Shown: positions 23,894-29,444, counted from the first letter of the stretch. The stretch is DNA of 64,000 bases from Vicingaceae bacterium (GCA_018402765.1 JAGYIE010000001.1:682001-746000), one strand, 5' to 3'. Notes: a model not told the origin generated them from the letters alone. Numbers and translations: made by a program.

Positions 23894-24826
23894 TTGCTAA
23901 TTATGCAGAACACAAAAATTCTCATCAATCCTATTAGCAATGTCAGAAATGCACTTCTGGCAATAGCATTAGGCTCGACACTTTCCATTTCATCATGCAC
24001 TGAAGGAGAAAAAAAAATTGAAAATCAGACACCTCTAGTAGAAACAGAAGGAAGGGCAAACGCAATGTTTGAAATAGAAGGAAAGGTATTTAGTATTCCT
24101 TCCCCTATTCAAACTGCTTTACTAATAAAAGAATCCGGAATAGCGTTCAATAAAGAAGCCTTGAATCCAATATCAAATGTTTCAAAGTATACAACATCTT
24201 CAAAAAAAGCACTTAACCTAGGTATTTATGGCACAGACTTAGGATACGTTACTATTTTTGAAGAACCACAATCTTCTATCGCATACTTAGCAGTTAGTAA
24301 AAGTTTAGCAAGTGACATCGGCATTGCTAATATATTTAACGAAAGTCTTTTAATCAGATATGAAAAAAATATTAGCAATAAGGACTCTTTATTGGTTTTA
24401 GTTTCTGATGCATTTAGGGCAACTGATCGATTTTTAAAAGAAAATGATCAAGATGATTTGGGGGCGCTAATACTTGCCGGTGGTTGGATTGAAACGTTAC
24501 ATTTATCTGCTCAGAATCCTGATATTTTAAACAACCAAAAGATTAAAGAAAGGATTGGAGAGCAAAAAATTACCTTAGAGAATCTTATTAAATTACTGCT
24601 TACCTTAAAAGAGAATAGTGATGTAATAGATTTAATTGCGAATCTAAACGAACTTAAAAGTATCTTTAATCAAGTAACTTACACGTATGAATTTGTCGAT
24701 CCTACTACAGAGGAGGAAACAAAAACGACGACGATTAACAGTATTTCTAGTACCACTATGTCAGCGGAGACACTAGAATTAATTACTCAAAAAGTTAATT
24801 CAATCAGAAATACAATTATCCAATAA
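23894..24826 (+). CDS. Lipoprotein of unknown function linked to TerB-ABCG transporter
   Basis: 310 residues. The N-terminus ends in lipobox ISSC (Cys35), preceded by an unusually long n-region (MLIMQNTKILINPISNVRN), so the true start may be the ATG of MQNTK (codon 4, 23903). Motifs that look conserved are GKVFSIPSPIQTALLIK, KALNLGIYGTDLGYVT and ALILAGGWIE; the C-terminal third is helical. No domain recognised. Its stop codon is immediately followed by the ATG of the next gene, so the two are translationally coupled, and together they precede the transporter at 25371. Confidence 0.75.
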   Translation: MLIMQNTKILINPISNVRNALLAIALGSTLSISSCTEGEKKIENQTPLVETEGRANAMFEIEGKVFSIPSPIQTALLIKESGIAFNKEALNPISNVSKYTTSSKKALNLGIYGTDLGYVTIFEEPQSSIAYLAVSKSLASDIGIANIFNESLLIRYEKNISNKDSLLVLVSDAFRATDRFLKENDQDDLGALILAGGWIETLHLSAQNPDILNNQKIKERIGEQKITLENLIKLLLTLKENSDVIDLIANLNELKSIFNQVTYTYEFVDPTTEEETKTTTINSISSTTMSAETLELITQKVNSIRNTIIQ

Positions 24827-25264
24827 ATGACCATTATGAATACATCGACCAACAAATTCGTCTTATTTTTCTTTCTATTGTTTATTGGTGTTCAATTTGA
24901 GTCTATTGCTCAGTGTGACACTATTGCAACTATTTGTAAAAAGAATATCTCCTCCCAGTTTTTATCCGACGGTCAAGAATATAGAGCTTTGTTAATCGAA
25001 GAAGAAACTGCAGAATTTCACCTTACTTTATACGGTGAAAGCGAATATCGCTTTGCAGCTTGCAGCGGATTACAGCAAAGTAATCTTTTGTTTACCGTTT
25101 ACGATAAAGAAAGGAATGAAATTTTTAGTAATAAAAAATATAGTATTGCTCCTTATTGGGACTTTAAGGTAGTTAATACACTTGATGTAATAATAGAAGC
25201 AAATCTAAACATAGATAAACTAAGCTCAGGGTGTGCGGTTCTATTAGTAGGTTTTAAGCCTTAG
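24827..25264 (+). CDS. Small secreted protein, unknown function
   Basis: 145 residues with a signal peptide ending ESIAQ-C (cleavage ~28; this SIAQ-C is not a good lipobox). Four further Cys in the mature part (CDTIATICKK, AACSG, SSGCAV) suggest a disulphide-bonded periplasmic domain. The start directly abuts the upstream stop (TAA-ATG); an alternative ATG lies three codons later. Terminated by a strong hairpin before the transporter gene, so it forms a two-gene unit with the lipoprotein. Confidence 0.72.
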   Translation: MTIMNTSTNKFVLFFFLLFIGVQFESIAQCDTIATICKKNISSQFLSDGQEYRALLIEEETAEFHLTLYGESEYRFAACSGLQQSNLLFTVYDKERNEIFSNKKYSIAPYWDFKVVNTLDVIIEANLNIDKLSSGCAVLLVGFKP

Positions 25265-25292
25265 TGTTTAATATTTTTCAATCAATTGATTT

Positions 25293-25327
25293 GGCGTTGA
25301 GACATTAGTTTCAACGCTTTTTTTTTA
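25293..25327 (+). terminator. Rho-independent terminator
   Basis: GCGTTGAGA pairs with TTTCAACGC around CATTAG, followed by nine or more Ts. It separates the two-gene unit from the ABC transporter gene. Confidence 0.9.
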
Positions 25328-25370
25328 TTATTTTCATACCTCCAAAAATTAAGTCGGTAGACAAGAAGAT

Positions 25371-28300
25371 ATGAGTGAACGAATTTTAAAAGCCCTAATG
25401 CAACTATTTGCTATTGTGGCTAATGTAAGTGAAGAAAATCCACTTGGACGAGAATTTGTGCGGTTCTTCCTCAAGCAGCAATTAAATCAGGAGCTAGTTG
25501 ATAAATACTTAATGGTTTTTGACCAATATGTAGAAGAACAAACAAAAAGAAAAGATGGTACAAAAGTAAGAAAGAGAACCTCCGTCAACTCTGTTAAGAT
25601 CTTAGTTATTTGTACGCAAATAAATAAGGAACTGACTCAAAAACAAAAGATTTTCGTTCTTATCAATTTACTAGAGTTCATCTACTTAGACAAAATTGTA
25701 AATGCTCAAGAAAGTGAATTTGCTGACACTGTTGCAGAAACATTTAACATAGAGAAAGAAGAATATGAAAAATGCAAATCTTTCATAAAGTCTGATGTTA
25801 ATCAAGTTATCGATTCTGAGGACATGCTGGCGGTAAGCAACAATTTTCCTGAGTCGCAGCTAAGATCAAAGCATATCCACTCTCCCGGACTTAATGGAAA
25901 ATTGAGAATCCTTTTTGTAAAAAGTGTGCGAATGCTTTTTGTAAAATATTTAGGAAGTTCTGAACTTCAGTTAAACGGTCAGATCATGCTTTCCTACAAA
26001 GTGTACATCCTTAATCAAGGTTCTGCCCTCCGCGGAAGCAAACTCTCTACGATATACTACAGCGATATAATAAGCAAGTTTCTTTCTGACACAAATGAAG
26101 AACTGACCACGTTTACGGCTGAAGAAGTAACCTATAAATTTAAAAATGGGAATATAGGATTACACGAACTGTCCTTTCAAGAAGAATCTGGTGGACTAAT
26201 TGGAATAATGGGCGCAAGTGGTGCAGGAAAATCTACATTATTAAATGTGCTGAATGGGAATTATAGACCAAGCACTGGCGCAGTAAAAATAAACGGTTTT
26301 GATATAAACGATCCATCGAATAAGGACAAAATTGAAGGCGTAATTGGATACGTTTCTCAAGATGACTTATTAATTGAAGAATTAACTGTTTTTCAAAACT
26401 TATTTTTTAATGCCAAGTTATGTTTCGGAAATCTTTCTGATAAGCAATTAATTAGAATGGTTATTAAGGTATTAAATGCCTTAGGTTTATATGAAACAAA
26501 AGATTTAAAGGTGGGAAGCCCAATGGATAAAACCATTTCGGGTGGGCAACGAAAACGCGTAAATATTGCCTTAGAATTAATAAGAGAACCTGCCGTTTTA
26601 TTTGTTGATGAACCAACATCAGGCTTATCGTCAAGAGATTCAGAAAATATTATGGATCTTCTAAAAGAACTCTCTCTAAGAGGGAAGTTGATTTTTGTCG
26701 TAATACATCAACCATCTTCTGATATATTTAAGATGTTTGACAAATTATTAATTCTAGATACAGGAGGTTATTTAATCTATAATGGGAATCCAGTCGATGC
26801 AATAATTTATTTTAAAACTATTGCTAACCAAGCAAATAAATCAGAGAGTGAGTGTGTTGAATGTGGAAATGTAAATCCTGAACAGATATTTAATATCATC
26901 GAATCTAAGGTTATCGATGAATACGGAAATTTAACAGACAGCAGGAAAACAGCGCCAAAAGAATGGGAAGATTATTTTCAAGAAAATGAGAAAAACAATG
27001 AGTTACTTGCAATCAAAAATGATAAGCCTCCGAAAATAACCTTCAAAATTCCTAACCTATGGAAACAGTTTAAGGTCTTTTTGAAAAGAGATATATTAAG
27101 TAAACTAACTAACAAGCAATATTTACTAATTAACTTTTTAGAGGCTCCAATATTAGCATTTATACTTGCATTTATTGTAAAATATAAAAATGCTGATGAG
27201 GCCTTAAATGGTGCTTACATCTTTAGGGAAAACGAAAACATTACTGCATACATTTTTATGTCAGTTATTGTAGCACTTTTTATGGGGCTAACTGTAGCAG
27301 CAGAAGAGATTATTCGCGATCAAAAAATACTTAAACGAGAGAAGTTTCTTAACCTTAGCAAAGGCAGTTATCTATTTTCAAAAATAGGAATCATGCTCAT
27401 TGTCTCTGCTATCCAAACACTTAGCTTTGTTTTGGTAGGTAACTCTATTCTTGAGATTAAAGGAATGTACTTTGACTATTGGTTGATTTTATTTTCAACA
27501 TCTTGTTTTGCAAATATGCTAGGTTTAAATATTTCTTCAGCATTTAACTCCGCAGTAACCATTTATATTCTAATTCCTTTTTTAGTAATCCCTCAGCTTA
27601 TTTTAAGTGGAGTTATTGTAAAGTTTGAAAAACTTAACCCTGCAATTACTGTACAAAATAAAGTTCCTTGGAGTGGAGATATTATGGTAAGCAAATGGGC
27701 TTTTGAAGCACTGGCGGTTAATCAGTTTAAAAATAACAAATTCAATAAAAATTTCTATTACATAGATAAGGAATTAAAAAGTGTGGGATTCAAAAAGAAC
27801 TTTTGGATGAATAGAATTCGGGAAAAGTTAAATTTTATTGAACGAAACCTATCGAATGAAGAGAAAAAAGAAGCGTTAATAAAAGCGATTTATTTAGTAA
27901 AAATAGAACTATCAAAAACGATAAGCTCGGTTCCTAGCATACCGTACAGTGAGATTGAGCAATTATCAATTGATAAGCTAACCGCATCTGCTATTGGCAA
28001 AACAAGGTCGTATCTTGAAGAATTAAATAACTACTACATAGACACCTACAATAAAATGACCTCCGAAAAAGATAAAGTGGTATCAGGACTTAATAAAACT
28101 GATGAAGACAAAGAGGAGTTTATTCAATTAAAAAATAGGTATACGAATGAATCGCTTAATGACTTGGTGACGAATCAAAATGACCTCAATAAAATTATAG
28201 AATGGGACAATCAGCTAATCCAACATTCGAATCCTATATTTAAGGATCCTGAAGGGTTTAGAGCTCATTTCTTTGCTCCTTCAAAATTGCTTTTTGGACA

Positions 28301-28460
28301 AAAGATTACTACATATACTGCTAACCTACTAGTAATTTGGTTATTCTGTATCAGCTTGGCAATAACATTGTATTATGACTCGCTTAAAAAGTTATTAGAC
28401 GCGATAGAGAAACAATTCTCTAAAATAAAAAGAAAAAGTAAGCAAATAAAAGCCCATTGA
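25371..28460 (+). CDS. TerB-like/ABCG-type ABC transporter fusion
   Basis: 1029 residues. The N-terminal ~150 residues resemble TerB-like tellurite-resistance domains (helical, acidic: LEFIYLDKIVNAQESEFAD). A ~100-residue linker domain with YSDI-type motifs leads to an ABC ATPase: Walker A GASGAGKST (~280-288), signature ISGGQRKRVNIAL (~388), Walker B LFVDEPTSG (~409) and the switch His in VIHQPSSD. About 590-790 carries ABC2-type helices, then ~180 residues of coiled, charged sequence (~800-980) and one last helix (~990-1010). The ATPase-before-membrane order is that of ABCG (White) half-transporters, which act as dimers. Cargo unknown. It faces the SiaB/SiaC pair and shares a bidirectional terminator with it. 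Confidence 0.86.
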   Translation: MSERILKALMQLFAIVANVSEENPLGREFVRFFLKQQLNQELVDKYLMVFDQYVEEQTKRKDGTKVRKRTSVNSVKILVICTQINKELTQKQKIFVLINLLEFIYLDKIVNAQESEFADTVAETFNIEKEEYEKCKSFIKSDVNQVIDSEDMLAVSNNFPESQLRSKHIHSPGLNGKLRILFVKSVRMLFVKYLGSSELQLNGQIMLSYKVYILNQGSALRGSKLSTIYYSDIISKFLSDTNEELTTFTAEEVTYKFKNGNIGLHELSFQEESGGLIGIMGASGAGKSTLLNVLNGNYRPSTGAVKINGFDINDPSNKDKIEGVIGYVSQDDLLIEELTVFQNLFFNAKLCFGNLSDKQLIRMVIKVLNALGLYETKDLKVGSPMDKTISGGQRKRVNIALELIREPAVLFVDEPTSGLSSRDSENIMDLLKELSLRGKLIFVVIHQPSSDIFKMFDKLLILDTGGYLIYNGNPVDAIIYFKTIANQANKSESECVECGNVNPEQIFNIIESKVIDEYGNLTDSRKTAPKEWEDYFQENEKNNELLAIKNDKPPKITFKIPNLWKQFKVFLKRDILSKLTNKQYLLINFLEAPILAFILAFIVKYKNADEALNGAYIFRENENITAYIFMSVIVALFMGLTVAAEEIIRDQKILKREKFLNLSKGSYLFSKIGIMLIVSAIQTLSFVLVGNSILEIKGMYFDYWLILFSTSCFANMLGLNISSAFNSAVTIYILIPFLVIPQLILSGVIVKFEKLNPAITVQNKVPWSGDIMVSKWAFEALAVNQFKNNKFNKNFYYIDKELKSVGFKKNFWMNRIREKLNFIERNLSNEEKKEALIKAIYLVKIELSKTISSVPSIPYSEIEQLSIDKLTASAIGKTRSYLEELNNYYIDTYNKMTSEKDKVVSGLNKTDEDKEEFIQLKNRYTNESLNDLVTNQNDLNKIIEWDNQLIQHSNPIFKDPEGFRAHFFAPSKLLFGQKITTYTANLLVIWLFCISLAITLYYDSLKKLLDAIEKQFSKIKRKSKQIKAH

Positions 28461-28480
28461 AATAATTCAATGGGCTTCTC
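28451..28480. terminator. Bidirectional terminator
   Basis: AGCCCATTGAA (28451-28461), loop ATAA, TTCAATGGGCT (28466-28476). Reading on the minus strand it is followed by TTTTATTT; the + side has CTTCTCT. It includes the transporter's last codons and stop. Confidence 0.8.
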
Positions 28481-28501
28481 TAGTTTATAGCATAAAAAGC
28501 A

Positions 28502-28882
28502 TTACTCTTCCATTTCAACCATTTTAAATGGGATGTTTATTATCGCTTGATAATCTTCTCCAGCTTCTAGCATATCCTCATCGTCCTCTTCGTAATACCA
28601 TTTAATTACTGTATCACTTCCGTTTGATTTAATCTTCTCTAACTTCTTAAATACATCCAGGATGCATTTAGAAGAACTCGTATTAAAGTATTCCAATTGA
28701 ATTTTAACCTCAGTTGAACTTTGAGGACTATTCGTATATTCTTCTAGCTTATCAACAAGTGGCTTATAAAATTCAATAGAATTCTCGGGGATAGATCTTC
28801 CTCTAATTAAAAGCTTACCCTCTTCTAAGTTAAATACAATTGTCGGAGTCTTTGGGGTCCCGTCTATTTTTAAATTTTCCAT
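28502..28882 (-). CDS. siaC: SiaC-family regulatory phosphoprotein (DUF1987)
   Basis: 126 residues of the DUF1987/SiaC family: TPKTPTIVFNLEEGKLLIRGRSIPE-type opening, EFYKPLVDKLEEY and the core FNTSSSKCILDVF. Thr68 in FNTSS aligns in position and motif with the phosphorylated threonine of Pseudomonas aeruginosa SiaC. There SiaB phosphorylates SiaC, SiaA dephosphorylates it, and unphosphorylated SiaC activates the diguanylate cyclase SiaD. Here only the kinase-like partner is adjacent (13 bases upstream, same strand); SiaA and SiaD are absent, so the output must differ. A role in controlling the convergent ABC transporter is an inference. Confidence 0.86.
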   Translation of the reverse strand: MENLKIDGTPKTPTIVFNLEEGKLLIRGRSIPENSIEFYKPLVDKLEEYTNSPQSSTEVKIQLEYFNTSSSKCILDVFKKLEKIKSNGSDTVIKWYYEEDDEDMLEAGEDYQAIINIPFKMVEMEE

Positions 28883-28895
28883 TTTTGCCTATTTT

Positions 28896-29444
28896 TTATT
28901 CACTTATTTTAACTAACAAACTGTAAAACGAATGTTGTTGATCAACTTCTTTAAAGTTATATTCTAGTTTATGTCCAGACTTTCTAGCAATATCGATCAT
29001 CCCTAAACCACCTCCTCCTTTATCAGACATTATTCCGTTGTTTAAGACTTCCTTATAAAAATCTTTGAGTTCATCAGCTTCTAAATTATTTATTTTATCT
29101 ATGCGATGTCTAAGTTCTTCGACATTATCATTCTCCATATAATTGCCGGTACATATCAAATAAGCCTCGTCTGATTTTCCAATTAAAAAAATTACGGAAG
29201 ACACTTCTTCTTTACCGCTTAAACTTGGATTTTCGGCAATGTGGTGGTAAAGATTTTGAAGGGTTTCAACTAAGACATTGTAAACCTTCTTTCTAATTCT
29301 TGATGGTTCTTCTAGCTTATCCATTTTGGATTCTATAATCTGCAAAACGGAAGAAACCAATTCTGAGGAAACATCACCTTTGTAGGATAATATAATATCA
29401 TCCTGATCCATAAGGTTATAAAACTCTAGTAAATTAATCTTCAT
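28896..29444 (-). CDS. siaB: SiaB-family protein kinase (DUF6272)
   Basis: 182 residues, GHKL-ATPase-like kinase of the SiaB type. The N-box region is VYNVLVETLQNLYHHI (Glu and Asn positioned for Mg-ATP), and the G-box is SDKGGGGLGMIDIARKSG. It opens with DQDDIILSYKGDVSSELV, as usual for the family. It should phosphorylate the adjacent SiaC homologue on Thr68. First gene of a two-gene unit. A possible promoter lies at 29474-29500. Confidence 0.84.
   Translation of the reverse strand: MKINLLEFYNLMDQDDIILSYKGDVSSELVSSVLQIIESKMDKLEEPSRIRKKVYNVLVETLQNLYHHIAENPSLSGKEEVSSVIFLIGKSDEAYLICTGNYMENDNVEELRHRIDKINNLEADELKDFYKEVLNNGIMSDKGGGGLGMIDIARKSGHKLEYNFKEVDQQHSFYSLLVKISE

Follow-up and report, generated by a model that had tools for sequence, protein, structure and literature searches.

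The window analyzed here is a 64,000-nucleotide stretch of the genome of a Vicingaceae bacterium (GCA_018402765.1, JAGYIE010000001.1:682001-746000). An initial annotation, made from the nucleotide sequence, had placed in it a cluster of five genes, in which a lipoprotein, a small secreted protein and an ABCG-type transporter converge on a SiaB-SiaC pair. Open reading frame (ORF) calling by a simple longest-ORF rule, combined with family assignment, confirmed all five genes at the positions claimed, as well as the direct abutment of the lipoprotein stop codon (TAA) and the ATG of the small secreted protein (24826/24827). The terminator thought to be shared by the transporter and SiaC genes takes the form of a strong two-way terminator-like hairpin. 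The features of the locus, together with one related gene elsewhere in the same genome, are the following:

23903-24826, + strand: lipoprotein gene (L), ORF call, about 307 amino acids (aa)
24827-25264, + strand: small secreted protein gene (S), 145 aa, with a signal peptide
25293-25318, + strand: terminator-like hairpin with a T run, between the S and transporter genes
25371-28460, + strand: ABCG-type half-transporter gene (T), 1029 aa
25371-26126, + strand: N-terminal regulatory head of the transporter, residues 1-252
28448-28479: two-way terminator-like hairpin shared by the transporter and SiaC genes
28502-28882, - strand: SiaC-family phosphoprotein gene (C), 126 aa
28896-29444, - strand: SiaB-family kinase gene (B), 182 aa
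L165:4302-5447 (approximately G000:C1:564301-565446), - strand: SiaB-type gene with tandem DUF6272 domains, outside the cluster

The listed start of the lipoprotein ORF is a TTG at 23894, with the ATG at 23903 being the more likely start. No PP2C or GGDEF gene was detected among the neighbors examined around the cluster, in agreement with the earlier observation that neither the phosphatase SiaA nor the cyclase SiaD lies nearby. The hairpin at 25293-25318, absent from the initial annotation, separates the small secreted protein gene from that of the transporter, so that the three plus-strand genes may not share a simple transcript; a similar hairpin is present in 24 of 50 corresponding gaps in relatives. 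This hairpin may be an attenuator or may set differing expression of the L-S pair and the transporter.

The lipoprotein, with the lipobox cysteine at residue 32, is mostly helical and contains seven invariant residues (Cys32, Gly107, Asp112, Tyr115, Gly193, Glu197 and Arg302). It belongs to no family in Pfam or NCBIfam, and its structural model, which is of good quality (pLDDT 84), yielded no convincing PDB match; EfeO/imelysin-like and phosphotransfer-like helical matches were weak and were dismissed as common arrangements. The small secreted protein carries four conserved cysteines (30, 37, 79 and 136) and, likewise, has no Pfam or NCBIfam family. Across the class sample, 80 of 99 loci have the lipoprotein gene no more than 4 kb from the transporter and 63 of 99 have the small secreted protein gene beside it, usually in the order L>S>T>; the lipoprotein family is present in 82 of the 84 transporter-containing genomes. 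Probably, the two proteins are extracytoplasmic partners of the transporter. The genome of the window encodes four members of the lipoprotein family, and copies that do not adjoin a transporter are common in relatives.

The transporter head and the SiaB-SiaC pair

In the transporter, the ATPase (ABC_tran in Pfam, 111.6 bits, residues 264-417) precedes the membrane domain (ABC2_membrane, 77.7 bits, residues 566-786) in a single chain, which is the arrangement of ABCG-type proteins, and a long loop (approximately 790-980) lies ahead of a C-terminal hydrophobic stretch. The best NCBIfam match, TIGR00955, is below the cut-off of that model. Upstream of the ATPase, the protein contains a TerB-like region (residues 1-140) and an FHA-like region (149-235). 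The TerB-like domain proposed previously is clear at the family level, with Pfam TerB (PF05099) matching 40 of 56 homologs (best 5.5e-12), whereas the window protein alone, at 17.8-20.9 bits, falls short of the cut-off of 24.4.

An AlphaFold2 model of residues 1-252, built with the 56 homologs, has a pLDDT of 89.8 and a pTM of 0.85. In this predicted structure, residues 1-140 are helical and match PG1108 of P. gingivalis (Z 9.6), and the structures matched by residues 149-235 are nearly all FHA chains, FHA-2 of Rv1747 among them, with moderate scores (Z ~6-8); on the strength of such scores from a predicted model, this segment was assigned the FHA fold. We call it FHA-like in view of these moderate scores and because the Pfam FHA model is nearly blind to the family, matching 2 of 56 members with a best E-value of 0.11, and the usual phosphothreonine-contact residues are not obvious by eye. 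Thus, the model shows the transporter head as a TerB-like plus a divergent FHA-like domain. The extreme N-terminus (MSE-ILKALMQLFAI) shows some of the strongest conservation in the head.

In Pseudomonas, SiaC is phosphorylated on Thr68 by the kinase SiaB and dephosphorylated by the PP2C protein SiaA (PMC7647112, PMC8457831); when unphosphorylated, SiaC uses Asn67-Thr68-Ser69 to bind SiaD helices, an interaction that phospho-Thr68 blocks (PMC8457831). The SiaC of the window, the only one encoded in its genome, clearly belongs to the family (PF09345, 147 bits against a curated cut-off of 24.5). Alignment to 6kko and 7e6g puts its motif Y65-F-N-T68-S-S in the Pseudomonas register, so that Thr68 within FNTSS is indeed retained, as first noted. 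Among transporter-linked SiaC proteins, both Asn67 and Thr/Ser68 are found in 55 of the 55 that are readable there. The SiaB of the window matches DUF6272 with 147 bits and exceeds the cut-off of the SiaB family kinase model (NF038262, 170 bits against 85), with conserved Glu60, Asn64 and a Gly-rich motif at 143-148. Against the narrower equivalog models of the Pseudomonas proteins, the two proteins score below the requirements (94.6 bits against 150 for SiaC with NF038265; 88.6 against 225 for kinase_SiaB). The second SiaB-type protein of this genome, with its two tandem DUF6272 domains, is encoded without an adjoining SiaC gene.

Association of the transporter with SiaC across Bacteroidia

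We surveyed the phyletic distribution of these families in 149 genomes of the class Bacteroidia, of which 84 encode the transporter, 86 the lipoprotein, 91 SiaC and 92 SiaB. Transporter and SiaC co-occur in 82 genomes, the transporter alone is found in two, SiaC alone in nine and neither in 56; the resulting phi of 0.85, as well as those for transporter and lipoprotein (0.92) and for transporter and SiaB (0.84), are raw values that are not corrected for common descent, and the widespread phosphatase domain SpoIIE, used as a control, gave 0.49 with the transporter. SiaC reaches up to 21 copies per genome, which implies that other SiaC outputs exist.

The genes are also linked. Using profiles of the five proteins to map the neighbors in about 100 collected transporter regions, we found that 34 of 100 loci, the window included, have a SiaC gene no more than 3 kb from the transporter; given genome size and the SiaC gene count of each genome, 0.82 such loci would be expected (nominal P ~3e-46, with loci treated as independent). 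Such linkage occurs in 22 of 38 families, and these counts are lower bounds, given that contig ends can hide neighbors; about two thirds of the transporter loci lack a SiaC gene at this distance. The arrangements are varied: SiaC can be convergent behind the transporter, as in the window, co-directional before it and separated from it by the lipoprotein gene (C>L>T>), or directly before it (B>C>T>), and a few loci are divergent. Of the four relatives sampled from the family to which the window belongs, G108 alone is linked, in the arrangement of the window, and the SiaC genes of the other three group with that of the window in the SiaC tree. Eighty named loci from a public genome collection display the same patterns in Bacteroidota, for example, in Crocinitomicaceae, Carboxylicivirga, Saccharicrinis and Cesiribacteraceae.

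The trees of the two proteins are in agreement with respect to these arrangements. The eight C>L>T> loci are a clade in either tree, with a support of 100 for the transporter and of 99 (from few columns) for SiaC, and loci of the B>C>T> type likewise cluster in both. In four genomes (G020, G064, G100 and G133), a main-type transporter is encoded alongside a C>L>T> transporter copy with a SiaC of its own. With such paralogs sharing a genome, the joint clades are hard to attribute to species history; cassette-level paralogs are as expected if transporter and SiaC work as a pair.

In two genomes (G041 and G115), the gene between those for SiaC and the transporter encodes a protein of 374 or 377 aa (L153, L154) that ends in a SiaC domain of 115 residues (99.7 and 91.2 bits) and begins with 220 residues that match the profile of the transporter head (E-values of 3e-18 and 1.5e-11). 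The two proteins come from two species of one genus and are 62% identical. The fusion was found in 2 of 395 class genomes and nowhere outside this genus, neither among the 395 genomes nor among the 80 named loci, so that one event may account for it. SiaC also occurs fused to SiaB (L181), to two SiaB domains in tandem (SiaB-SiaB-SiaC; L271, L272) and to PP2C (L270). To judge from these sequences, the fusion of SiaC alike to the kinase, the phosphatase and the head points to the head as a direct partner of SiaC. The L270 protein (L270:2784-4850, - strand) combines, in one chain, a caspase-like N-terminus, recognized by eye from its motifs, with PP2C SpoIIE and SiaC domains.

Taken together, the phyletic match, the linkage in 22 families, the cassette paralogs and the head-SiaC fusion support the original proposal that the two halves of the cluster, at first connected by position, belong together, and contradict the possibility that there is no conserved neighborhood. 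The coupling of the transporter with SiaB-SiaC is, therefore, well supported.

The transporter can work without SiaC, given that in six of the seven transporter-encoding genomes with no SiaC match (G022, G107, an uncultured Bacteroidia MAG, a Prolixibacteraceae MAG and three Prevotellaceae MAGs) the transporters form one clade in the transporter tree. The related transporters of this clade in SiaC-less genomes are L234, L236 and L237 (Prevotellaceae), L222, L227 and L162, and most of them also lack an adjoining lipoprotein gene. In all seven cases, the head is less conserved than the ATPase domain predicts (z from -1.1 to -2.3); with about two independent events and several incomplete metagenome assemblies, this is only suggestive of faster head divergence where SiaC is missing. 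In a phylum-wide sample, the matches outside the class are ABCG cores within longer proteins, some of which, in other phyla, carry a TerB-like N-terminus, and no SiaC was found in the one related Spartobacteria genome tested (L246). Hence, transporters of this layout are more widespread than their pairing with SiaC.

A SiaC-gated transporter as the probable output

The initial annotation had suggested a switch that operates through SiaC phosphorylation instead of c-di-GMP. The genome of the window contains no GGDEF match and hence no SiaD, and so a c-di-GMP output was rejected and the SiaA/SiaD pair elsewhere that would have claimed this SiaC was not found. In the class, 146 of 149 genomes are devoid of a GGDEF match, which was detected in the other three. 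The genome does encode three PP2C (SpoIIE) proteins, all unlinked to the cluster, one of which is a HAMP-PP2C (HAMP-SpoIIE) protein of 595 aa at G000:C9 with the layout reported for SiaA. This protein would complete the switch rather than refute the module. In relatives, PP2C sensor genes often lie near the cassettes, with beta-propeller/Y_Y_Y-PP2C proteins behind SiaB and, at loci of the B>C>T> type, GAF/PAS-PP2C proteins together with CheB/CheR. The B>C>T> cassettes of L146, L152, L153 and L154 adjoin genes for CheB, CheR and GAF/PAS-PP2C proteins, neighbors that suggest methylation-based input of a chemotaxis-like kind. Directly 3' of a C>L>T> cassette, L118:10146-12296 (+ strand) encodes a 717-aa protein that combines GldL_N, GldM_1st and PP2C SpoIIE domains; GldL_N and GldM_1st are parts of the gliding/type IX secretion motor, and the protein is a possible motor-like sensor feeding SiaC.

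We favor, with a probability of roughly two in three, a signal-controlled envelope transport module in which PP2C and SiaB set the state of SiaC and SiaC gates the transporter through its head. Under this scheme, a SpoIIE-type PP2C acting in trans, probably the HAMP-PP2C protein, together with SiaB would determine whether Thr68 of SiaC is phosphorylated. SiaC in one of the two states would then dock on the cytosolic TerB-like/FHA-like head and alter the dimerization or ATPase activity of the transporter, so that transport would be switched on or off post-translationally, without c-di-GMP. Outside, the lipoprotein and the four-cysteine secreted protein would act with the transporter as acceptor, chaperone or cargo. 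Physical docking of SiaC on the head, the role of Thr68 as the switch and export as the direction of transport are what we infer from the combined evidence, and by analogy with SiaD, unphosphorylated SiaC would be the binding form. The extension to the class, namely, that SiaC acts as a general adaptor and, in Bacteroidia, has direct control of an ABCG transporter via the TerB/FHA-like head, rather than c-di-GMP, as its main output, with diverse PP2C sensors (beta-propeller, GAF/PAS, GldL/GldM-like) as inputs, we consider slightly better than an even bet.

The predicted FHA-like fold of residues 149-235 would also permit the reverse, with phosphorylated SiaC as the form that binds. FHA domains read phosphothreonine, and Rv1747 of Mycobacterium tuberculosis, an FHA-FHA-ABCG transporter, is tied to the Ser/Thr kinase PknF (PMC3908365); by the same logic, the FHA-like part could recognize phospho-Thr68, so that phosphorylation recruits SiaC rather than releasing it. 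Nevertheless, the near absence of Pfam FHA matches and the failure to recognize the canonical contact residues by eye, along with the behavior of the only SiaC studied, in which phosphorylation blocks effector binding (PMC8457831), render this variant rather unlikely. It appears improbable that SiaB-SiaC serves another effector and that its nearness to the transporter is inherited synteny devoid of a functional link. The unlinked two thirds of the transporter loci are compatible with such an explanation, as is the fact that, at some loci without a transporter nearby (L168, L169 and L172), SiaB-SiaC keeps its own neighbors, namely, a methyltransferase and the two gene families that follow it in the window. 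However, inherited synteny fits poorly with the several orientations, including the one with the lipoprotein gene in between, with the excess of linked loci over expectation and the clades shared by both trees, and with the fusion of the head to SiaC. Least probable is a reversed flow, with the L, S and T proteins sensing or carrying a signal and the head controlling SiaB, SiaC and PP2C towards some other output: the genomic association fits both directions, and sensory PP2C proteins and CheB/CheR do lie near some cassettes, but the studied SiaC acts on a downstream target and transporters of this layout exist without SiaC. A role in phage defense was rejected, the PADLOC matches being limited to generic ATPase parts.

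Relationship to known systems

The closest counterpart of the favored SiaC-gated module is the SiaABCD system of P. aeruginosa, which consists of the PP2C phosphatase SiaA, the kinase SiaB, the phosphoprotein SiaC and the diguanylate cyclase SiaD (PMC7647112, PMC8457831). The two systems share the SiaB and SiaC families, Asn67-Thr68-Ser69 and a HAMP-PP2C protein of SiaA layout, which in the window's genome is unlinked. They differ in that no GGDEF protein or SiaD was found in this genome, that the linked partner is an ABCG transporter and that SiaB and SiaC of the window do not reach the cut-offs that NCBIfam sets for the Pseudomonas equivalogs. Because SiaD, the defining output, is missing, the system of the window is not SiaABCD, but it probably works like SiaABCD up to SiaC. 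In HsbA-HsbD and BgrV-BgrR (cited in PMC8457831), too, an antagonist-type protein passes its phosphorylation state to a target other than a sigma factor, but those targets are diguanylate cyclases, whereas the likely target here is a transporter.

On the transporter side, Rv1747-PknF similarly combines an ABCG half-transporter, an N-terminal FHA-type module and a linked Ser/Thr phosphorylation system (PMC3908365). Unlike Rv1747, the transporter of the window has a TerB-like domain in front and a single, divergent FHA-like domain; furthermore, the SiaB/SiaC switch replaces the kinase that phosphorylates the transporter itself, and a lipoprotein and a secreted protein are added. The TerB-containing ABCG proteins of Verrucomicrobiota and Armatimonadota (L244, L250) have the TerB-like N-terminus and the ABCG core in common with the window protein but differ in size (1100-1200 aa), and no cassette of lipoprotein, small protein and SiaC was seen with them. 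PMC8457831 contains the general suggestion, made by its authors, that a DUF1987 protein modulates the proteins adjacent to it. In the literature searched, which excludes most subscription papers, we found no description of a SiaC-controlled or SiaC-linked transporter. We read the cluster as a SiaABC-type partner switch with a transporter as a likely, new kind of output.

The class is nearly devoid of diguanylate cyclases, and about 60% of its genomes sampled here encode SiaB and SiaC. For SiaC in these bacteria, the evidence presented here names a concrete target and a candidate docking domain. If the proposed mechanism is true, the reach of partner switches is not confined to sigma factors and cyclases but includes membrane transport, and an unstudied ABCG family gains a regulator, a lipoprotein and a secreted partner.
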